From the IMG/VR virus record IMGVR_UViG_3300024346_000217, positions 1-37,828 of that record: a stretch of 37,828 nucleotides of DNA. One strand, 5' to 3'. Of this stretch, positions 6,810 through 20,291 are shown piece by piece (within the stretch, counting starts at the first letter, position 1; every line of letters begins with the position of its first letter). The position numbers and the translations under genes are program-made. The notes under the pieces were generated by a model, which saw only the letters and a program-made list of their open reading frames with translations, ran no database searches and was not told where the DNA came from. Origin of the DNA: a virus.

Positions 6810-7055
6810 ATGGCAATATTATCAGAAAGAATTGAGGGTACAAGTATATCTGTTGATATTAAATCGACTAATATTAGATCCGCGTCATATAATACGGAAA
6901 GCAAGTTGTTGACAGTTGTATTCAATAACGGTAGTATTTATGAATACGCAGATGTTTCATGGGAATTGTTCACCAAGTTTAGGATGAGTGATTCGCAGGG
7001 AGCATTTCTAAATGCAAAAATAAAGAATGCACACGCCTATAAAAAGGTAAGTTAA
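6810..7055 (+). CDS. KTSC-domain protein
   Basis: 81 residues that match the KTSC layout end to end: an early Ser/Asn-Ile segment with SASYN (residues 25-29), LLTVVFNNGSIYEY forming two strands, then SWELFTKFRMSDSQGAFLNA and a terminal HAYKKV. KTSC domains are small stand-alone or RNA-associated modules of unknown biochemical role, common in phages. The TAA overlaps the next gene's ATG by one base (TAATG), so the two are translationally coupled. Confidence 0.8.
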   Translation: MAILSERIEGTSISVDIKSTNIRSASYNTESKLLTVVFNNGSIYEYADVSWELFTKFRMSDSQGAFLNAKIKNAHAYKKVS

Positions 7056-7843
7056 TGAAAAATCTAGTAGACGAACTTTTAGAATTATCAGATCCGGAGA
7101 CAGACAGTAAGATTATTAAGTCATTTCAGCTTAAGGATACGTTGTGTCCAACAATATTTGATAAGAACGAAACTGGGGAATTTACAATTAAAAAGGAAAT
7201 TTCGGATAAGTTATTAGAGATAACAGATTCATTTATTGATTTCCTAGGTGTTGATTTTTTTATACATGATGTTATATTAACAGGCTCTTTAGCTAATTAC
7301 AATTGGTCAGAATACTCGGATGTGGATTTACACATATTAATAGATATGAATGAGATCAGTGAAGGTGATAGTGCTTCAAACGCTATGCACGATATCGTTA
7401 AAGAGTTTTTTGATGCAAAAAAGAATGTTTGGAATGAAAAGAATGACATTAAAATAAAAGGATTTGATGTTGAATTATATGTTCAAGATGTTAATGAAGA
7501 ACACGTTTCATCTGGGGTATATTCGGTTTTAAACAATGAATGGGTTGTTGAACCATCTATGAAAAAAGAGAATATCGACACCAAAAAGATACTAGAAAAG
7601 GGTGAATTTTTTGCCAAAAGAATTGACCAACTAATTGATTATCATGAACATGGTAAGGATGTTGATAAAATGGCTTTAGACCTAAGAGACAAATTAAAAA
7701 AATTTAGAAAAAGTGGGCTAGAGGCTGGTGGGGAATACTCATATGAGAACTTAACTTTCAAGCTTTTAAGAAGAAATGGGTATATTGAGAAGTTAATGAA
7801 TCTTAGAAATAGTATTTCAAACAAAAAATTATCCCTACCATAA
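7055..7843 (+). CDS. Predicted nucleotidyltransferase (Pol beta superfamily)
   Basis: 262 residues. The signature GS-L-A-N-Y-N-W-x-E-Y-S-D-V-D-L-H (residues 77-93) supplies the GS motif and the Asp89/Asp91 metal ligands. FDVELYV (137-143) offers the third acidic residue, probably Asp138 or Glu140. The C-terminal 90 residues are helical. Such enzymes transfer NMP to RNA, protein or small molecules; the acceptor cannot be read from the sequence. Related predicted transferases recur beside structural genes in T4-like marine phages. Coupled to the KTSC gene by a 1-nt overlap. Confidence 0.8.
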   Translation: MKNLVDELLELSDPETDSKIIKSFQLKDTLCPTIFDKNETGEFTIKKEISDKLLEITDSFIDFLGVDFFIHDVILTGSLANYNWSEYSDVDLHILIDMNEISEGDSASNAMHDIVKEFFDAKKNVWNEKNDIKIKGFDVELYVQDVNEEHVSSGVYSVLNNEWVVEPSMKKENIDTKKILEKGEFFAKRIDQLIDYHEHGKDVDKMALDLRDKLKKFRKSGLEAGGEYSYENLTFKLLRRNGYIEKLMNLRNSISNKKLSLP

Positions 7844-11389: not shown

Positions 11390-11397
11390 TATTTATA
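11390..11397 (+). promoter_or_regulatory. TATTTATA element before terminase
   Basis: TATTTATA immediately after the terminator U-tract and only 3 nt before ATG 11401. Several other genes show the same 3-4 nt gap. Confidence 0.45.
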
Positions 11398-11400
11398 TAT

Positions 11401-13185
11401 ATGAGTCAAAAAATAGAACAATTAAAGGAGTATGCTCGTGTAATAAAAGATACTCCATATGCACTTAGAACATATCTTCAAACATTTGATAATACTCAAA
11501 AAAAGTTTGTACCACTAGAGTTGTTTCCAGATCAAATACAATTATTAAAAGATTACGAAACATATAATGAAAACATTACTAGAAAATATCGTCAAGCTGG
11601 GGTTACAACAGTAACGGCTGCGTGGTTATCAAAAAAACTACAACTAGCCAAGCCAGAGAATCCTGAGAGAGTTTTGATTATTGCTAACAAGCGTGATACC
11701 GCTATTGAGATGGCGAATAAGGTTCGTCACTTTTTAGATCAATGGCCAGAGTGGTTAAATGTTGGATTCTCACCAGATAAAAACTCGGAAAGTAGATTTA
11801 GATTAAATAATGGATCTGAAGTAAAAGCGGTTGCAACATCTGCGGATGCACTTCGTGGTTTTACTCCAACAATATTAGTGTTTGATGAGGCTGCATATAT
11901 TGAGGCCGGAGAAGACTTCTGGGCGGCGTCTATGGCTTCTCTATCTACCGGTGGTAAGATTATATTAATATCAACACCAAATGGCTACGATCCAATTTAT
12001 TACGGTGTTTATGAACAAGCAATTAGGGGTATTAATGATTTTCACATCACTGATTTAAGATGGTTTAAAGATCCTAGATATACTAAAGATTTGGTTTGGA
12101 TTAAAGTTCCAGATATTGTGCATTATATGTTAAATAGAGAACAATATAATGATGATGAGGTTATTTTAAAAGAATTCGACATAACAAAATACAAAGAATT
12201 AATGGATGATGGGTATCAACCTTATTCATCTTGGTTTGAGTCAATGTCCAAAAAATTCAAATATGATAAGAGAAAAATTTCTCAAGAACTTGAATGTGAT
12301 TTCTTAGGATCTGGTGATAGTGTAATACCAACCGAGACAATGGAAAAAATTGCTAAAACCATGATTAAACAACCAAAAGAAAAATATATGCAAGGATTGC
12401 TTTGGCAATGGAAAGAACCTGTTCAGGGGCATAGGTATATTATGGGAGTTGATGTTAGTAGAGGTGATAGTGAGGATTTTTCATCAATCAATATTATTGA
12501 TTTCGATGAAAGAGAGCAAGTTGTTGAATATGTTGGTAAAATGCCACCAGACGATTTAGCGTCTGTTGCTTATAAATGGGGTATATTATATGATGCGTTT
12601 ATTGTAATCGATATCACAGGTGGTATGGGTGTTGCAACATCAAGAAAATTGCAAGAAATGAATTATAAGAACTTATTCATTGATGGTATTAATACCAAGA
12701 ATGTTTGGGAATATAATGCAAAAGCAATGGAAAAAATACCTGGAATTAATTTCAATAATAAAAGAACACAAATTGTTTCAGCATTTGAAGAACAACTCAG
12801 ACATGATTTTATTGTTAGATCTAATAGGCTTTTAAATGAACTAAACACTTTTGTTTATATAAATGGTAGACCAGATCATATGAAAGGACAACATGATGAT
12901 TCAATCATGAGTTTAGCTATTGCTTTGTATGCTGGAGAAATATCATTTACACAATTAGTTAGAAACGAACAACAGAATAAGGCTATGCTAGATTCTTGGG
13001 TTATGTCAGAAAGAACATATCAGTCACCACAAACAGAAAATTATTCATATGGAACTAGTTTCGATCAGGTTGGTATGATGCAAATTGATAGCTCACCATA
13101 CGCAAAGAGTAGTTCTAACGGTATACCAGCGAAAGAACAGTACAATCAATATTCCTGGTTATTCGGAACTAATAAAAAGGCTTGA
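11401..13185 (+). CDS. 17: Terminase large subunit (gp17-like)
   Basis: 594-residue DNA-packaging motor and headful nuclease. ATPase: the Walker A region reads R-Q-A-G-V-T-T (64-70), lacking the usual GK[ST]; Walker B ILVFDEA (158-164); motif C ISTPNG (190-195). The RNase H-like nuclease begins IMGVDVSRGDSEDF with Asp351, then IVIDITGGMG with Asp404, and ends with GQHDDS (Asp499/Asp500), giving the expected acidic metal ligands. Length is close to T4 gp17 (610). No small terminase gene is recognisable in the window. Start chosen at ATG 11401, after the terminator and TATTTATA element. Confidence 0.95.
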   Translation: MSQKIEQLKEYARVIKDTPYALRTYLQTFDNTQKKFVPLELFPDQIQLLKDYETYNENITRKYRQAGVTTVTAAWLSKKLQLAKPENPERVLIIANKRDTAIEMANKVRHFLDQWPEWLNVGFSPDKNSESRFRLNNGSEVKAVATSADALRGFTPTILVFDEAAYIEAGEDFWAASMASLSTGGKIILISTPNGYDPIYYGVYEQAIRGINDFHITDLRWFKDPRYTKDLVWIKVPDIVHYMLNREQYNDDEVILKEFDITKYKELMDDGYQPYSSWFESMSKKFKYDKRKISQELECDFLGSGDSVIPTETMEKIAKTMIKQPKEKYMQGLLWQWKEPVQGHRYIMGVDVSRGDSEDFSSINIIDFDEREQVVEYVGKMPPDDLASVAYKWGILYDAFIVIDITGGMGVATSRKLQEMNYKNLFIDGINTKNVWEYNAKAMEKIPGINFNNKRTQIVSAFEEQLRHDFIVRSNRLLNELNTFVYINGRPDHMKGQHDDSIMSLAIALYAGEISFTQLVRNEQQNKAMLDSWVMSERTYQSPQTENYSYGTSFDQVGMMQIDSSPYAKSSSNGIPAKEQYNQYSWLFGTNKKA

Positions 13186-13221: not shown

Positions 13222-13229
13222 TATTTATA
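13222..13229 (+). promoter_or_regulatory. TATTTATA element before portal
   Basis: TATTTATA 4 nt before ATG 13234 in the 48-nt terminase-portal gap. Confidence 0.42.
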
Positions 13230-13233
13230 TAGT

Positions 13234-15039
13234 ATGGCGAATCAAGATTTGACAGTTTTTCAGAAATTAACTAAGATATTTGGCTTCCAGAATAAGGGAG
13301 AACAAAGTCCTCCGTCTTTTAATTTTTCAAGAGAAGAGTTATTAAAGACCGATGATCCCGTTGAATTTGAAAAAGCTAGGTTACAAGCACAACAGTCTCA
13401 ATATCTTTTTGATAAGTGGGCAAAATTAGATAATTCATTATATAACCAATCAGTATATTATGAACCAAATAGACTATCAGCATATTATGATTATGAGTCT
13501 ATGGAGTTTACACCTGAGGTGTCAGCAGCATTGGACATTTATGCGGAAGAATCTACAACGGTTTCTGAAAAGGGATATATTTTAAATGTATATTCCGAAT
13601 CAAAAAGAGTAAAGAACGTTTTAATAGATCTATTTGAAAATAGATTAGATATAAACACTAACCTACAAATGTGGGCTAGAAATGTGTGTAAGTATGGTGA
13701 CAACTTTGTTTATTTAAAGAGTGATCCAGAAAGAGGTATTGTTGGTTGTCAACAATTACCTAATATTGAAATTGAAAGACTTGAAGGTGCACAATCAAGA
13801 ACACCAAACGCTGGTGATCTAAAATCTCCAATTCGCGAATTGAGATTCCAATGGAAAAATAAGGATATGGAATTTCAGTCTTGGGAACTTGCACATTTTA
13901 GATTATTGGGTGATGATAGAAAGTTACCATATGGTACTTCTATGTTAGATAAGATTAGAAGAATTTGGAAACAACTTTTACTTGCTGAAGATGCTATGTT
14001 AATTTATAGAACATCAAGGGCTCCAGAAAGACGTGTATTCAAGATTTTTGTTGGTAATATGGATGATAAGGATATTGAACCATATGTACAACGTGTTGCA
14101 AACAAATTTAAAAGAGATCAGGTAGTAGATAGTAGAAATGGCCAAGTAGACATGAGATACAATCAAATGGCTGTTGATCAAGATTATTTTATTCCTGTTC
14201 GTGATCCTGCGGCCCCAAGTCCAATTGAAACATTAGCCGGTGCGCAAAACTTAGGTGAGATTGCTGATATTGAATATATTCAAAAGAAATTATTGGCAGC
14301 ACTTCGTATTCCTAAGGCGTTCTTAGGGTTTGAAGAAGTTGTTGGTGACGGTAAGAATCTTGCTTTAATGGATATTCGTTTTGCAAGAACAATCAATAGA
14401 ATTCAAAAATCTTTAATACAAGAATTAAATAAAATCGCTTTAATTCACTTATATCTTTTAGGATTAGAGGATGAATTAGAAAACTTTACATTAGGTTTAA
14501 CAAACCCTTCTTCACAAGCAGATTTATTAAAAATTGAGCAGTGGAAAGAAAAGGTTACATTATATAAAGATGCAACTTCAGATCAATCTCAAGTGGGTAT
14601 ATTACCAGTATCACATACGTGGGCTAAAAAGAATATTCTTGGTATGAGTGATAATGAAGTGTTGTTAGATTTACAACAACAACGTCTTGAAAGAGCTATG
14701 GGAGCTGAATTACAAAATACAGCACAGATCATTAAAAGGTCTGGTGTGTTTGATGAGGTTGATAGTAAGTATGGTATTCCGGAAGAAGAAAGAGCGGAAA
14801 TTGAAGCACAAGCGAACGCTGGCGGTGATGAAGGTGCATTAGGCGGAGGTATGCCACCTAGTCCATCATCAGAACCACCTGGAGAGGCTTCTGAACCATT
14901 AAGTGAAAGAAAAAAGTTTAGTAAAATTAGAAGTGTTTTAGGGGAATCACAAGAAAATAATGATTTATTTAATCTTGAAAAGGCACAGAAGAATATTTAT
15001 GAAATAGAAAATAAATTGAACGACATTATAAACGATTAA
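13234..15039 (+). CDS. 20: Portal vertex protein (gp20-like)
   Basis: 601 residues; forms the dodecameric portal for DNA entry, head assembly initiation and tail attachment. Typical T4-like gp20 features include the early YYEPNRLSAYYDYESM segment, SAALDIYAEESTTVSEKG, the APERRVFKI stretch and the KKLLAALRIPKAFLGFE helix region before a conserved acidic end. The C-terminal 90 residues (from about 515) are a Gly/Pro/Ser-rich extension with a P-L-S-E-R site near residue 558 that fits prohead protease cleavage. T4 gp20 is 524 residues, so this extension is extra. The next gene starts 2 nt after the stop. Confidence 0.95.
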   Translation: MANQDLTVFQKLTKIFGFQNKGEQSPPSFNFSREELLKTDDPVEFEKARLQAQQSQYLFDKWAKLDNSLYNQSVYYEPNRLSAYYDYESMEFTPEVSAALDIYAEESTTVSEKGYILNVYSESKRVKNVLIDLFENRLDINTNLQMWARNVCKYGDNFVYLKSDPERGIVGCQQLPNIEIERLEGAQSRTPNAGDLKSPIRELRFQWKNKDMEFQSWELAHFRLLGDDRKLPYGTSMLDKIRRIWKQLLLAEDAMLIYRTSRAPERRVFKIFVGNMDDKDIEPYVQRVANKFKRDQVVDSRNGQVDMRYNQMAVDQDYFIPVRDPAAPSPIETLAGAQNLGEIADIEYIQKKLLAALRIPKAFLGFEEVVGDGKNLALMDIRFARTINRIQKSLIQELNKIALIHLYLLGLEDELENFTLGLTNPSSQADLLKIEQWKEKVTLYKDATSDQSQVGILPVSHTWAKKNILGMSDNEVLLDLQQQRLERAMGAELQNTAQIIKRSGVFDEVDSKYGIPEEERAEIEAQANAGGDEGALGGGMPPSPSSEPPGEASEPLSERKKFSKIRSVLGESQENNDLFNLEKAQKNIYEIENKLNDIIND

Positions 15040-15041
15040 AA

Positions 15042-15785
15042 ATGAACAGAATTGGGATTATAAAGAGCAAACTCTTAAAAAAACTAACAGAATCATATGG
15101 TTCTAACAATAAATCTGAAATGAAAAACATTTTAAAATCTGTTGTTGAGAATAAGGAGTTCAAGGAGATGTATCTTTTCTACGAGGAAATTGAAAATAAA
15201 TATTTTGAAGATAAGGAAATAGCTAAATTATATGTTGAAGGTATTGATACCGAAATGGTAAAACAACAAGTTAAAAATTTAAAAACATTCTGTGAATCAC
15301 TAGATAAGAAGTTAGGGGATATTGAGGTAACAACAAATGAAATATATGAGGCATTAGATCAATTGGGATCTGAAGATTCGTTATCAAACCTTGAAAAGAA
15401 AATTGTGGCAAAAAAGAGACTAATTGAACATTTAACAACTAAAAAATCAGTAGAAAACATCTCTGAGAGTAAAACTTACACAGCAAATGAAAATTTGTTA
15501 CATGCAGTATTGGTAAATAATTTCAATAATCTATACGAAAATACATTATCTAAAGAAGATAAAGAGGCGCTTAAGAATATTTTGGATATAAACGGTGAAG
15601 AGTTATTAACTAAAACATCTGAACTAAAAGAAACAATTCTTTCTAAAGTTACAAATATTTTATCAGAATCTAAAGATGCTGATTTGGAAACAAAACTTAA
15701 ATCAGTTAGAAATGAGGTTACTTCGATGACTCCATCAAAATACAATTATTACAGATTAACACAACTTAAAAATGGTCTTGATTAA
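15042..15785 (+). CDS. Probable prohead core protein
   Basis: 247 residues, almost all alpha-helical and charged (Lys/Glu/Leu-rich), no cysteine cluster or membrane segment. It sits between portal and prohead protease, the place of the core proteins gp67/gp68 in T4, and contains I-S-E-S and I-L-S-E-S sites suited to the protease. Sequence itself is not recognisable as gp67 or gp68, so the call is positional. Its stop codon lies inside a terminator hairpin shared with the convergent bS21 gene. Confidence 0.65.
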   Translation: MNRIGIIKSKLLKKLTESYGSNNKSEMKNILKSVVENKEFKEMYLFYEEIENKYFEDKEIAKLYVEGIDTEMVKQQVKNLKTFCESLDKKLGDIEVTTNEIYEALDQLGSEDSLSNLEKKIVAKKRLIEHLTTKKSVENISESKTYTANENLLHAVLVNNFNNLYENTLSKEDKEALKNILDINGEELLTKTSELKETILSKVTNILSESKDADLETKLKSVRNEVTSMTPSKYNYYRLTQLKNGLD

Positions 15786-15799
15786 ATCAGACCATTTTT
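15768..15799. terminator. Shared terminator in overlapping 3' coding ends
   Basis: AAAAATGGTCT (15768-15778), loop of 10, AGACCATTTTT (15789-15799). It works on both strands and overlaps the ends of both convergent genes, whose stop codons interlock at 15782-15785. Confidence 0.8.
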
Positions 15800-15973
15800 T
15801 AATTTTTCCACATAAACAGCTTTTAATACTTCAGCACGTTTTTTAACAGAGGGTTTTGTAAACGATTGTCTTTCCCTTAGATTTTGAATCTGTTTAGTTT
15901 TTTGTACCTTACTTTTGTAAGTTTTAAGAGCAGACTCAATGCTCTTTTCTTTTTTCATATCAATTATAATCAT
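15782..15973 (-). CDS. rpsU: Ribosomal protein bS21, phage-encoded
   Basis: 63 residues. MIII start, SIESALKTYKSK, then RERQSFTKPSVKKRAEVLKA and a YVEKL tail. This is the bS21 pattern in its Bacteroidota form (start MIII, R-x-R-Q-x-F-x-K-P-S-V, A-x-Y-V). bS21 sits on the 30S platform next to the anti-Shine-Dalgarno tail of 16S rRNA and affects start-site choice. In Bacteroidota it helps hide that tail. Phage bS21 genes are known in several large phages, including T4-like marine ones. It is a lone - strand gene inside the + strand head cluster, with its own TATTTATA element 4 nt from the ATG. Confidence 0.88.
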   Translation of the reverse strand: MIIIDMKKEKSIESALKTYKSKVQKTKQIQNLRERQSFTKPSVKKRAEVLKAVYVEKLKNGLI

Positions 15974-15977
15974 ATAT

Positions 15978-15985
15978 TATAAATA
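15978..15985 (-). promoter_or_regulatory. TATTTATA element before bS21
   Basis: TATTTATA on the - strand, 4 nt before ATG 15973; suggests bS21 is made with the late genes. Confidence 0.42.
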
Positions 15986-16072
15986 TTTTCATTTAATCTT
16001 TTGGAATATTAAAAAAAAATCCTTATTTTATATCTTATCACCATAATATAATTAAAATTATGAAAAAAATTA

Positions 16073-16501
16073 ATGAAAATCGGAAAATTTATTCCATTAG
16101 GCGATCACAAAGATGTAAAAGTTGGCTATGGAACAGTAGATTTTAAAAATCTTAAAACAGTTTATGTAAAAATGAATGCATGGGTAGAACCCAATAATGA
16201 AAATGAAGACTTTGACAAAACAATCTCTAAAGCAAGAAAAAAAATGAAAGACTTTATTAGAGAGTATAATTTAGGTGAAAATTTCAAAAAAGAAAGTATT
16301 GTTGATTTAGATATTAGGACAAAAGGGATAAAGATGAATAAAAGATCATTTATGAATTTAGAAATCACATTATTTGTAGATAAATTTTTTGATGTTAAGT
16401 CTAATTTAGTTAAAAACTTACTTAAAACCTTCACTCACGAGTCAATAGATAGTTGTTTAGCGGATAAAACATTATTCAATTTTAATAAAACTAAGATTTG
16501 A
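16073..16501 (+). CDS. Hypothetical protein between bS21 and prohead protease
   Basis: 142 residues, Lys-rich, alternating strands and helices; no family recognised. It is divergent from bS21 across a 99-nt gap with poly-A tracts. An overlapping ATG at 16060 opens only a short false frame. T4 has no gene of this kind at this position, so it looks like an insertion into the conserved head order together with bS21. Confidence 0.65.
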   Translation: MKIGKFIPLGDHKDVKVGYGTVDFKNLKTVYVKMNAWVEPNNENEDFDKTISKARKKMKDFIREYNLGENFKKESIVDLDIRTKGIKMNKRSFMNLEITLFVDKFFDVKSNLVKNLLKTFTHESIDSCLADKTLFNFNKTKI

Positions 16502-16515
16502 TTCTATTATCCTTG

Positions 16516-16523
16516 TATTTATA
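16516..16523 (+). promoter_or_regulatory. TATTTATA element before prohead protease
   Basis: TATTTATA 20 nt before ATG 16544, followed by an AT-rich inverted repeat (GATATATTAATATATC, 16525-16540). Confidence 0.45.
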
Positions 16524-16543
16524 TGATATATTAATATATCATA

Positions 16544-17233
16544 ATGAAAATATTAGGACCTAACGACTCTGGAAGAGGACTACTGATTGAATATGACGCA
16601 GGTCACATATCTCCAGAAGAATTAAAAAACAAAAATATAATAACAGAAATACAGAATAAGGATACCGACCAGGATCTTATTCTGTATGCTGTTTTACAAA
16701 AATACGATACCCCAAATAAGAACGGTAGGATTTATCCTGAAATGTTACTTAAAAGGGAAAATGAAAAGTATCAACAAATAATGAGCAAGGGTTCCGCCCT
16801 TAATGAGCTCAATCATCCGTCATCATCACTTATTGATTTAGATAGAGTTTCCCATACAATCACTGAAACGTGGTGGGATGGTAAAACTTTAATGGGTAAA
16901 ATAAAAATATTAACATCTCCAGGTTGGAAAAAAATGGGGATTGTTAGTTGTAAAGGTGATCAAGCAGCCATGCTACTTCTAAATGGCGTTACATTAGGTA
17001 TATCTTCAAGAGGTGTTGGATCATTAAAACAAATAAAGGGACAAAACATTGTACAAGATGATTTTGAATTAGTTTGTTTTGATTTGGTATCATCACCATC
17101 AACACCAGGTGCTTACGTTTTTCAAGACATTGCGGATAAAGATAAATTTAACGAAACCGTTGAAGAAAAGTCTACTATAGACGATAGAATGAAGAAATTG
17201 ATGGGTAACCTTGATACTTTTCTTAAAAGATAA
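16544..17233 (+). CDS. 21: Prohead core protease (gp21-like)
   Basis: 229-residue serine protease of the T4 gp21 (U9/S77-like) herpes-assemblin-like fold, which cuts scaffold and capsid proteins after I/L-x-E during head maturation. Visible are KNGRIYP (59-65), ELNHP with likely catalytic His91, GISSRG with likely nucleophile Ser154 (or Ser155), and CFDLVSSPS (178-186) near the C-terminus. Length is close to T4 gp21 (212). The Lys-rich tail is probably removed by self-cleavage. It directly precedes the scaffold gene, as in T4. Confidence 0.93.
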   Translation: MKILGPNDSGRGLLIEYDAGHISPEELKNKNIITEIQNKDTDQDLILYAVLQKYDTPNKNGRIYPEMLLKRENEKYQQIMSKGSALNELNHPSSSLIDLDRVSHTITETWWDGKTLMGKIKILTSPGWKKMGIVSCKGDQAAMLLLNGVTLGISSRGVGSLKQIKGQNIVQDDFELVCFDLVSSPSTPGAYVFQDIADKDKFNETVEEKSTIDDRMKKLMGNLDTFLKR

Positions 17234-17296: not shown

Positions 17297-17304
17297 TATT
17301 TATA
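17297..17304 (+). promoter_or_regulatory. TATTTATA element before scaffold gene
   Basis: TATTTATA 20 nt before ATG 17325. A perfect TTTTGATATCAAAA palindrome lies 24 nt upstream of it (17259-17272). Confidence 0.42.
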
Positions 17305-17324: not shown

Positions 17325-18524
17325 ATGAGCGAAAAATCGATTTTAGAACAAGCACTACTTCAGGTAAATACACTTGAAGAAGCAGTAAAGCAAAATGCAA
17401 AAGGTATACTTTCTTCAGTAATGAAGCAAGAACTAAACGAATTGCTTAAAGAATCAGAAGAAGAGGAAGAAGTAGCAGATGATGCTATGGATCCTAAAGC
17501 AGAGGAAAACGACATGTCAGAGCAGCCAGATTCAGATGATGAAGAAGCTGATGATGAAGATGAAATGCCCTCGATAAATGATGAACCATCAAAAGATATC
17601 GATGGTGAAGACGAAGAAGATGAAGACGATATGTTTTCAACTGACGACGAATCACCTGAAATGGAAGACGATGAGTTACCATCTATGGATGATATGGCAT
17701 CAGATGATGACGATACATTAGACATGACAGGAGCTCCAGATGAGGAGGTTCTAAAGGTGTTTAAAGCAATGTCAGATGAAGATGGTATTATTGTTAAAAA
17801 AGATGGTAATAATATTGAACTTACAGATGCTGATGATGAGTACATTATTAAGTTAGACGAATCAGAAGAAGAGGAAGAAGAAATGTCTGAAGACTGGACT
17901 GAAGAGGAAGCTAGCGATGATGTTGCGGATGACGAAACCATCTATGAAATTGAGTTAGATGATGAACCAGAAGATGAAGCTGAAATGTCTGAAGAAGATA
18001 TGCCAGCTGAAGAAGAGGTTGATGAAGCTGCTCGTGCTAAGTGGAACGTACATGGTGGTAAAAGATCTGGTTTAAAAAGCAAAAAAGTTTTTGCAGCCGG
18101 TGCTAAAAATGAATCTAAAGCATCAACAAATGCAATTAACGAAGAAGTAGAAAATCTTAAAAAACAAAACAGCGAATATAAAAAAGCGTTGATTATGTTT
18201 AAAGATAAACTAAATGAAGTTGCTGTATTTAACGCAAATCTTGCTTATGCAACTAGATTATTCACTGAACATTCAACAACAAAACAAGAGAAATTGAATA
18301 TTTTGAAGAAATTTGATTCAATTTCAAATATAAAAGAATCTAAAAATCTTTACAATACTATTAAATCAGAATTAGATACTAAAAAACCAGTAACTGAATC
18401 TATAGTTAATAAGATTGTTAATACCGCATCAACATCTTCTTCTCAAGAAGTTTTATCTGAGTCAAAAGCTTATGAAGCACCTCAATTTAAGAGAATGAGA
18501 GATTTGATGAGTAAAATAAAATAA
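17325..18524 (+). CDS. 22: Prohead scaffold/core protein (gp22-like)
   Basis: 399 residues. A helical N-terminus (1-45) is followed by about 190 residues that are extremely rich in Asp/Glu (35-230, with one short folded-looking patch at 143-175). Then comes a basic patch (KWNVHGGKRSGLKSKK, about 239-254) and a long helical C-terminus. The position between protease and capsid gene, plus the helical C-terminal half, fits T4 gp22. L-S-E-S near residue 379 is a likely protease site. It is longer than T4 gp22 (269) because of the acidic insert, which may pre-fill the head and then be degraded to peptides. Confidence 0.85.
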   Translation: MSEKSILEQALLQVNTLEEAVKQNAKGILSSVMKQELNELLKESEEEEEVADDAMDPKAEENDMSEQPDSDDEEADDEDEMPSINDEPSKDIDGEDEEDEDDMFSTDDESPEMEDDELPSMDDMASDDDDTLDMTGAPDEEVLKVFKAMSDEDGIIVKKDGNNIELTDADDEYIIKLDESEEEEEEMSEDWTEEEASDDVADDETIYEIELDDEPEDEAEMSEEDMPAEEEVDEAARAKWNVHGGKRSGLKSKKVFAAGAKNESKASTNAINEEVENLKKQNSEYKKALIMFKDKLNEVAVFNANLAYATRLFTEHSTTKQEKLNILKKFDSISNIKESKNLYNTIKSELDTKKPVTESIVNKIVNTASTSSSQEVLSESKAYEAPQFKRMRDLMSKIK

Positions 18525-18557: not shown

Positions 18558-20291
18558 ATGGGAGCATTATTAGAATCAGGTATGGTAGGTAACATCGGTC
18601 TTAAGCACCTTCGTGTTATCAAAGAAGATACCATCAAAAAATGGGATGACTTAGGCTTTTTAGAAGGTCTTGACGGTCACCAAAAAGATAACATCGCGCA
18701 ATTGTATGAAAACCAAGCGTCTTATTTAATCAACGAAGCAGCAGTTTCTGATGCTAGTGGTTCATTCGAGACAGTGGTATTCCCAATTATCCGCCGTGTA
18801 TTCTCTAAATTATTAGCAAACGATATCGTTTCTGTACAAGCAATGAACTTACCAATTGGTAAATTGTTCTACTTCGTACCTAAAATTCAAGAAAGACAAT
18901 CAAACTTACACAAATCACCTTATGGTATGCCAGGCAATAGCGACGCATCTACTTTAGGTTATGAAACTGGTACAACAGATCCAAGAAGCTTGTATGATCG
19001 TTTTTACGAAGCAAATGATGCAGCTGATGCTGGTATCTATGATTATTCTAAAGGAGCGTTCTCTGCTGTAACTTTAACAGGTTCTTCAGTTGTAACTTTC
19101 TCTAACGGAGCAACTACAGATGTAGCTAACGCTGATTTAACTGGTGATACAGTTTCTGATATCATTGTTAAATTCACAGGATTTGCAAAAGATGGTCAAG
19201 GTAAATTGATCGGGCCAAATGGTTCTGTAATGGATACTGAAGAATTCTTAGCTTCTGCTGTAGTTAACTACGCAGGTGCAGCAAGAAACTTTAACATTGT
19301 TACACAAAAGTATGGTAAAGGTATTGTTGAATATGGTCAAAAATCAACTTCAGCAACATATCCTTCAGGAAGATACCAAGATATTTGTGATGAAGAAGGT
19401 ACAATTTACGTAAAAGTAGATTTACAATCTTACAGCGCAACTTCAGGTTTCTCTGACTTTACTATTCCTTCAGGTTTCACTTCAAGTGCAGTATCATTAG
19501 TTTTCAGAGTTTATGATACATTAGAATTTGAAGATCAAATTGGTGAAGTATCGTTTGATTTAGCTTCAGTAACAGTTTCTGTAACTGAAAGAAAATTAAG
19601 AGCTAGCTGGTCTCCAGAATTAGCACAAGACGTTTCTGCTTTCCATAACATCGATGCTGAAGCTGAATTAACAGCTTTATTATCTGAGCAAATCGCTGCT
19701 GAGGTTGACCGTGAAATTTTACGTGACCTTAGAAAAGGTGCTGCTTGGACTGCTAAGTGGGATTATAATGAGTGGAAATATGGTGCAACTGGAAACACTC
19801 CGTTCATGGGTTACACTCAAAAGGATTGGAACCAAACATTGGTGACTAAAATCAACCAATTGTCAGCTCAAATCCATAAGACTACATTAAGAGGTGGTGC
19901 AAACTGGATCGTTGTTTCTTCAGAAGTATCTGCAGTATTCGATGATTTAGAATATTTCCACGTATCTAATGCTGGTCCAGAGCAAGATCAGTACAACATG
20001 GGTATCGAGAAAGTAGGTACACTTGCTGGACGTTATCAAGTATACCGTGATCCATACTTACCAGCAGGTAAGATCCTTGTAGGTCACAAAGGTAAGTCAC
20101 TATTAGACGCAGGTTATATCTACGCTCCATATGTGCCGTTACAGTTAACTCCAACAATGTACAATCCATTTAACATGACACCGATTAAAGGTATCATGAC
20201 ACGTTACGCAAAGAAAATGGTAAACAACCGTTACTTCGCTGTAATCAACGTAAGTGGTTTACAAACGTTCGATATGAATACTTTAAGATAA
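18558..20291 (+). CDS. 23: Major capsid protein (gp23-like)
   Basis: 577 residues. The N-terminus up to about residue 60 matches the T4 gp23 propeptide arrangement. L-I-N-E-A-A places the predicted protease cut after Glu60, close to E65 in T4. Conserved stretches include the FPIIRRVF region (75-82), MNLPIGKLFYF, RKLRASWSPELAQD, the LRKGAAWT and ANWIVVSSEV segments, and the ITRYAKKMVNNRYF-like end. It is somewhat longer than T4 gp23 (521), with extra strands in the 150-330 region. Codons are visibly richer in C-ending forms than in neighbours, as expected for the most abundant phage protein. A strong terminator follows. Confidence 0.96.
   Translation: MGALLESGMVGNIGLKHLRVIKEDTIKKWDDLGFLEGLDGHQKDNIAQLYENQASYLINEAAVSDASGSFETVVFPIIRRVFSKLLANDIVSVQAMNLPIGKLFYFVPKIQERQSNLHKSPYGMPGNSDASTLGYETGTTDPRSLYDRFYEANDAADAGIYDYSKGAFSAVTLTGSSVVTFSNGATTDVANADLTGDTVSDIIVKFTGFAKDGQGKLIGPNGSVMDTEEFLASAVVNYAGAARNFNIVTQKYGKGIVEYGQKSTSATYPSGRYQDICDEEGTIYVKVDLQSYSATSGFSDFTIPSGFTSSAVSLVFRVYDTLEFEDQIGEVSFDLASVTVSVTERKLRASWSPELAQDVSAFHNIDAEAELTALLSEQIAAEVDREILRDLRKGAAWTAKWDYNEWKYGATGNTPFMGYTQKDWNQTLVTKINQLSAQIHKTTLRGGANWIVVSSEVSAVFDDLEYFHVSNAGPEQDQYNMGIEKVGTLAGRYQVYRDPYLPAGKILVGHKGKSLLDAGYIYAPYVPLQLTPTMYNPFNMTPIKGIMTRYAKKMVNNRYFAVINVSGLQTFDMNTLR

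Follow-up and report, generated by a model that had tools for sequence, protein, structure and literature searches.

Phages carry bS21 far more often than any other ribosomal protein (PMC9976891). Mizuno et al. 2019 (PMC6375957) placed it among the two commonest virus-encoded ribosomal proteins, reported that it is under purifying selection, and found that a virus-encoded bS21 was incorporated into E. coli 70S ribosomes; the protein that they tested came from a Pelagibacter phage (PMC9723584). The bS21-encoding Bacteroidetes myoviruses described by Chen et al. 2022 (ISME Commun; PMC9723584) form clades a-e and have genomes of 293-331 kb. Their bS21 gene is on the reverse strand between two hypothetical protein families, within a region that holds the genes for TerL, portal, protease, and major capsid protein (MCP). 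Phage and bacterial bS21 cluster apart, residue 54 is a conserved aromatic, and the clade-conserved C-terminus of the phage proteins was taken as possibly functional. In Lake Rotsee bS21 was transcribed with capsid genes, and a late replacement of host bS21 was proposed (PMC9723584). On the host side, Bacteroidota mRNAs lack Shine-Dalgarno (SD) sequences, and rpsU is the one clear exception in most Flavobacteriales (PMC9976891). Many Flavobacteriales rpsU genes have an extended SD, by which bS21-free ribosomes of Flavobacterium johnsoniae raise bS21 synthesis, and bS21-defective F. johnsoniae ribosomes initiate more weakly on SD-less mRNA; both results are experimental (PMC9976891).

The locus described here lies in a 37.8-kb viral fragment, which is called the window below. 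Its features are as follows.

11390-11397, plus strand: box TATTTATA, 3 nt before the TerL ATG at 11401
11401-13185, plus strand: TerL (gp17-type), PHROG 2, E 1e-38 (ORF taken from TTG 11374)
13222-13229, plus strand: box TATTTATA, 4 nt before the portal ATG
13234-15039, plus strand: portal (gp20-type), PHROG 213, E 2.2e-63
15042-15785, plus strand: conserved hypothetical, convergent to bS21 and on the opposite strand beside it in 80/80 loci
15768-15799, no strand assigned: hairpin like a bidirectional intrinsic terminator, with an 11-bp stem and A and T tracts, across both convergent stop codons
15782-15973, minus strand: phage bS21, 63 aa, ATG start, complete, Tyr54 present
15974-16072, no strand assigned: conserved divergent intergenic region, from an alignment of 43 distinct upstreams
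15978-15985, minus strand: late-promoter-like box TATTTATA, a putative promoter 4 nt before the bS21 ATG
15999-16004, CN strand: conserved intergenic element TTTTGG
16039-16046, CN strand: conserved element CACCATAA, which in the window lies 26 nt upstream of the start of CN
16073-16501, plus strand: conserved hypothetical "CN", divergent from bS21, in 77/80 loci
16516-16523, plus strand: box upstream of the prohead protease
16544-17233, plus strand: prohead protease (gp21-type), PHROG 207, E 1e-44
17297-17304, plus strand: box upstream of the scaffold-position gene
17325-18524, plus strand: hypothetical called "scaffold" from its position only; no Pfam or PHROG match
18558-20291, plus strand: MCP (gp23-type), PHROG 138, E 9.6e-66

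Nothing essential separates this locus from those of Chen et al.: bS21 is again on the reverse strand between two hypotheticals, near TerL, portal, protease, and MCP. The arrangement, and its interpretation as a late substitution of host bS21, are already published (PMC9723584). The original prediction, made from the window sequence alone, had bS21 interrupting the gp20-gp21 order on the opposite strand. The strand and the head-cluster setting are as predicted, but bS21 is in direct contact with neither gp20 nor gp21; its neighbors are 15042-15785, which it overlaps tail to tail by 4 nt, and CN. Upstream of the head cluster, 7055-7843 carries a nucleotidyltransferase domain (PF01909, 23.6 bits, cut-off 21).

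A scan of IMG/VR confirmed 171 bS21 relatives, and the best 80 of the 171 were kept for locus counts. These show the window gene order wherever their flanks reach. Wherever one of the head genes was found (portal in 76 loci, protease in 73, TerL in 62, MCP in 59), it lies on the strand opposite to bS21, and the loci in which one of them was not found are mostly short. CN is missing beside bS21 in 3/80 loci, all three of which end within 123 nt on that side. TerL proteins are 75-100% identical to that of the window (alignments of at least 500 aa, 45 loci among the best 80 of 171), and the portal protein of one relative, a 251-kb contig (L013), is 96% identical to the window portal. A tblastn search of 50,697 phage records with phage bS21 (E 1e-3) gave 6 matches, no isolate among them.

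The gene product was predicted to be a complete Bacteroidota-type bS21, and this is borne out. The protein exceeds the cut-offs of Pfam PF01165 (44.5 bits, cut-off 27, profile positions 2-52 of 55) and NCBIfam TIGR00030 (33.9 bits, cut-off 28.95), and it matches PHROG 21469 "ribosomal protein S21" (E 2.6e-5). Its best PDB match, over residues 1-62 (E 5.9e-13), is chain z of 7jil, the F. johnsoniae ribosome (PMC9723584). Tyr54 occurs in 40/40 distinct phage homologues and in 64/64 distinct host sequences. Tyrosine, or another aromatic residue, at position 54 marks the Bacteroidia-type bS21 that sequesters the anti-SD (ASD) tail of 16S rRNA, and by this residue the window protein is assigned to that type. 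The type suggests that the host group of the virus is Bacteroidota. The bS21 tested by Mizuno et al. was of the Pelagibacter-phage type, unlike the predicted Bacteroidota type, with its ASD-sequestering pocket, found here.

Residues 1-58 of the phage and host proteins were compared, a position being called diagnostic if no residue occurs at least 3 times in both groups. There are 13 diagnostic positions, all within residues 5-34, and the changes in phage bS21 include R14, R18, R21, and R30 to S, T, Q, or N. The C-terminal half is conserved relative to the hosts. This combination agrees with the contrast between the two halves drawn by Chen et al. Phage bS21 resembles F. johnsoniae bS21 in family, near-equal length, Tyr54, and C-terminal half; it differs in the 13 N-terminal positions and in having no strong SD, whereas F. 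johnsoniae rpsU is autoregulated through its extended SD (PMC9976891).

The check proposed with the original prediction was a phylogeny of bS21 with host and phage homologues, and in it the phage lineage is separate from the hosts. The tree covers 40 distinct phage proteins together with 8 from other viral contigs and 64 from hosts (64 columns). A branch with SH-aLRT 96 sets off all 40 phage proteins. They group with 7/8 of the other viral-contig proteins (SH-aLRT 98) apart from the hosts (SH-aLRT 98); finer forks are unresolved at 64 columns. The median pN/pS of bS21 is 0.22 (50 distinct CDS; 977/1225 pairs passing a pS filter of 0.05-0.7), a value that shows purifying selection. Because the lineage is separate, the gene is under purifying selection, and the locus order is conserved, bS21 looks like an old phage gene rather than a recent capture.

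Three groups of sequences in this collection are of separate interest. A 72-kb "viral" contig (L162), the eighth of the other viral contigs in the tree, has a Chryseobacterium-like rpsU with His54 and an upstream region nearly identical to that of Chryseobacterium. It clusters with Chryseobacterium in the tree and probably represents host DNA. Viral bS21 genes of Bacteroidota type also form a second group (L163-L182), in most of which TATATTTATTATCAT stops some 11-14 nt short of the ATG. Two MAGs titled Rhizobium and Limnohabitans (L103 and L133) hold Flavobacterium-type rpsU genes, a likely result of bin contamination.

When loci were collected by CN, bS21 was present in 74/80; of the other six, three are cut at the contig end and three lack bS21 although the flank is present. 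In these last three (L220:2155-3429, L223:2155-3429, and L257:2187-3426) both bS21 neighbors, the 15042-15785 type and CN, are retained, and no bS21 was found elsewhere on the contigs, which are fragments of 12, 83, and 18 kb, respectively. These relatives indicate that bS21 is not required by every such phage, being apparently dispensable for some phages of the window type, and that CN needs no adjoining bS21. Judged by eye, L220 and L223 keep both TTTTGG and CACCATAA in the intergenic region, as well as a hairpin where the 15042-type gene ends; L257 keeps just CACCATAA. CN is a candidate for the "bS21_CN" of Chen et al. If it is the same protein, the three relatives differ from the two bS21-less outgroup phages of that study, in which bS21_CN was undetected. 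CN is a 142-aa orphan whose model (mean pLDDT 85.3; order beta-beta-beta-alpha-beta-beta-alpha) has no PDB match at E 1e-3 and one BFVD match at that threshold, A0A8S5L9A5 of Myoviridae sp. ctPuP5, a predicted viral relative. The idea that CN is a functional partner of bS21 was considered and rejected; Pfam DUF3194 matches only below its cut-off, and fold and co-occurrence point to no function.

The hairpin at 15768-15799 has fold z-scores of -3.87 and -4.55 on the two strands. The best stem at this site is at least 9 bp in 39/39 distinct relatives, a raw count that allows G-T pairs and has no shuffled comparison, and two pairs are changed on both sides among the 10 distinct hairpins with a 4-nt loop. 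A plain terminator scan did not list the hairpin, probably owing to its loop rule. Both convergent genes read through the hairpin, and as a result their C-termini mirror one another: 15042-15785 ends in KNGLD and bS21 in KNGLI. In L220, which has no bS21, the 15042-type protein ends in ENGLE. The conserved NGL of the bS21 C-terminus is thus coded by a hairpin arm, mirrored in the convergent protein, and also found where bS21 is absent, which makes a constraint at the DNA level an alternative to the protein function considered by Chen et al.

The predicted element 4 nt upstream of bS21 was located as TATTTATA at 15978-15985 on the minus strand. Within 60 nt upstream of the 44 window ORFs, TATTTATA occurs in sense before 8 and in antisense before none. 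In 19 chosen relative loci it lies in sense upstream of 88/218 ORFs and in antisense upstream of 2, with 96 copies in total. The 251-kb relative (12 stretches, 240 kb) has it within 50 nt upstream in sense before 34/220 ORFs and in antisense before 7. The reversed string, used as a control, occurs upstream of 28/220 ORFs there, nearly as often, a result explained in part by its overlap with the same extended motif. Anywhere in this relative TATTTATA is found 78 times against 58 for the control, a modest excess for an AT-rich octamer. Ten of the 34 genes bearing the box were scanned. Five had no PHROG match, one fell in a PHROG whose function is unknown, and four matched PHROGs for structure or packaging (TerL, head-tail adaptor, tail tube, and baseplate wedge). 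Among 37 distinct bS21 upstreams of 30 nt, 11 have exact TATTTATA, 18 the variant TATACTTA, and 8 neither.

The T4 late promoter consensus is TATAAATA. A reading of 15978-15985 as this consensus on the plus strand, facing away from bS21, was ruled out; the box is TATTTATA in the sense of the gene, and the orientation first assigned to it holds, as TATTTATA reads in sense with the genes of these phages. Like a T4-type late promoter, the octamer stands in sense before genes of late type, with the sequence TATTTATA and not TATAAATA. Its presence before both bS21 and head genes is in keeping with the late expression that had been suggested, if the box is indeed a promoter. The cultured Flavobacterium phage immuto (MW353176), whose portal protein is 37% identical to that of the window and second only to a Microcystis phage, has a similar T4-type head cluster, and six of its genes, TerL and portal included, are preceded by TATTTATA at a distance of 11-17 nt. 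In the 31 kb of immuto examined, all 6 plus-strand copies precede genes, and the 4 minus-strand copies consist of 2 that overlap those and 2 inside genes. Unlike the window, this region has no annotated bS21. We found no report of a Flavobacterium phage late promoter in the open-licence PMC literature searched, nor TATTTATA itself in the related papers examined there.

Two further upstream elements were considered. The Bacteroidota -7 box TAnnTTTG precedes bS21 in many other clades and might be a signal for early host-sigma expression, but its strand contrast is weak (26/42 distinct 50-nt bS21 upstreams in sense, 16 in antisense), and no -33 element was seen by eye. It is absent upstream of the window bS21. 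The combined element TATATATTTGTRATATACTTAT, with up to 3 mismatches, occurs once in each of 3/6 relative contigs, just upstream of bS21 and on its strand, and was not found in the other three.

The distance from box to start codon differs among the genes. It is 3-6 nt for TerL in 14/16 distinct relatives (the other two hits begin deep inside TerL) and for portal in 11/11, and it is 4 nt for bS21 in 5/17 distinct upstreams, the window clade included. The distance is 15-21 nt for the protease in 13/14 and 18-27 nt for the scaffold-position genes in 14/14. MCP, CN, and 15042-15785 have no box within 60 nt upstream in any of 16 distinct relatives each. If the box is a -10 element, a distance of only 3-6 nt would make the messages start at or beside the AUG, so the mRNAs of TerL, portal, and window-type bS21 may be leaderless or nearly so. 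Zheng et al. 2011 (PMC3160421) use TA-like signals some 10-12 bp upstream to recognize leaderless genes, and leaders longer than 10 nt are found on 87% of the predicted transcripts of F. johnsoniae (PMC6847099).

The phage was predicted to have almost no SD sequences. Of the 46 window ORFs listed as genes, 36 were compared with the ASD tail (those omitted being mainly GTG- and TTG-start ORFs), and in no case did the pairing reach -8 kcal/mol; random 25-mers reach this value in 2%. The energies were calculated with an 11-nt ASD tail, a procedure that differs from that of PMC9976891, in which an extended SD is one below -13 kcal/mol. At the -8 kcal/mol threshold the 251-kb relative has 3/220 genes (random 2.3%), the phage bS21 upstreams 0/35 distinct (median 0.2, best -6.3), and the best 80 host rpsU loci 60. 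A strong SD is likewise found in 0/20 loci of the second viral bS21 group. The Flavobacterium-like host rpsU genes (L082-L139, a few with MAG titles that name other genera) all pair at about -16 kcal/mol or better (58/58). In the other host loci (L140-L161; Bacteroidales, Chryseobacterium, and others) a strong rpsU SD is present in 2/22 and absent in 20/22. Phage bS21, as calculated here, does not have the extended SD of the autoregulated Flavobacteriales rpsU genes. If the host has the rpsU SD loop, the phage gene would stand outside that loop. This point falls away if the host lineage has no rpsU SD, as in the 20/22 loci that are not Flavobacterium-like.

The text of PMC9723584 contains no word beginning with "promoter", "autoregul", or "terminator", and in this respect the present analysis adds to that work the late-type box, the lack of an SD of the rpsU type, and the terminator-like hairpin. 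They lead to a reading to which we give about an even chance: a functional phage bS21, expressed late from a promoter of its own, closed by a terminator and free of feedback, that would keep ribosomes replete with bS21 while repressing host rpsU. It builds on features plain in the sequence, namely the identity and conservation of bS21, Tyr54, the lack of a Flavobacterium-type extended SD, the late-type box common to the head genes, and the conserved end hairpin. Phage bS21 would enter the 30S subunits of a Bacteroidota host, where its C-terminal half would retain the 3' tail of 16S rRNA in the bS21-bS18-bS6 pocket, thereby keeping ribosomes replete for SD-less late mRNAs. With no extended SD to sense bS21-free ribosomes, its synthesis would run outside the feedback loop, and its occlusion of the ASD would make host rpsU less well translated. 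Supply and feedback, not recognition of phage messages, would then displace host bS21. Against this reading, just 11/37 bS21 upstreams have exact TATTTATA, the excess over the reversed control is modest, and three relatives have no bS21.

A simpler reading, which we regard as quite possible though not probable, is that the host loses its rpsU transcripts, by destruction or shut-off, and the phage tops up an easily exchanged protein, with no selectivity and no role in feedback. Viral ribosomal proteins tend to be of easily exchangeable types (PMC6375957), Tyr54 and the C-terminal half are conserved, and the weaker initiation of bS21-defective F. johnsoniae ribosomes on SD-less mRNA (PMC9976891) fits as well. 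Such resupply does not itself explain the phage-specific N-terminal signature, and the bS21-less relatives also count against it.

The N-terminal signature is central to the specialized ribosome of Chen et al. and of the original prediction, in which the diverged N-terminal half selects phage mRNAs over host mRNAs. The 13 diagnostic positions lie on what Chen et al. read as the mRNA side, the phage lineage is apart from the hosts, and PMC9723584 argues for such selection. However, no phage-specific mRNA feature was found for bS21 to read, phage genes being SD-less like host genes, and a long-separated lineage would be expected to diverge even without selectivity. We consider this explanation rather unlikely. 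The original wording, in which sequestration of the ASD biases 30S subunits toward phage mRNAs, is weak: sequestration alone cannot favor phage mRNAs, since those of the host are SD-less as well, rpsU excepted.

We are similarly doubtful of a more far-reaching rewiring of bS21 control, in which the phage gene would be late, SD-less, and leaderless or nearly so together with TerL and portal, and ASD occlusion would silence host rpsU and leave the phage as the only source of bS21. An extraribosomal or virion role is very improbable. A packaged or nucleic-acid-binding protein would account for the fixed place in the head cluster and the late-type box, and packaging was raised as a possibility by Chen et al. 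(PMC9723584), but Tyr54 and the bS21 signature are kept in 40/40 homologues, and the gene is on the strand opposite to the head genes with a terminator-like hairpin between. That bS21 is a functionless passenger recently captured from a host, as its absence from a few relatives might suggest, is hardly credible in view of the separate phage lineage, the pN/pS of 0.22, and the same neighbors in 80/80 and 77/80 loci.

The regulatory reading of a feedback-free, late, and perhaps leaderless phage bS21 was not found in the open-licence PMC literature searched, where no later study of phage bS21 appears to test the rpsU loop with such a protein, and it is the part worth testing. Flavobacteria would provide a clean test, as bS21 controls access to the anti-SD and most Flavobacteriales have a single strong-SD gene, rpsU. 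If phage bS21 has escaped the loop and yet feeds into it, selection of phage mRNA by the ribosome would become separable from takeover of the bS21 supply by the phage.
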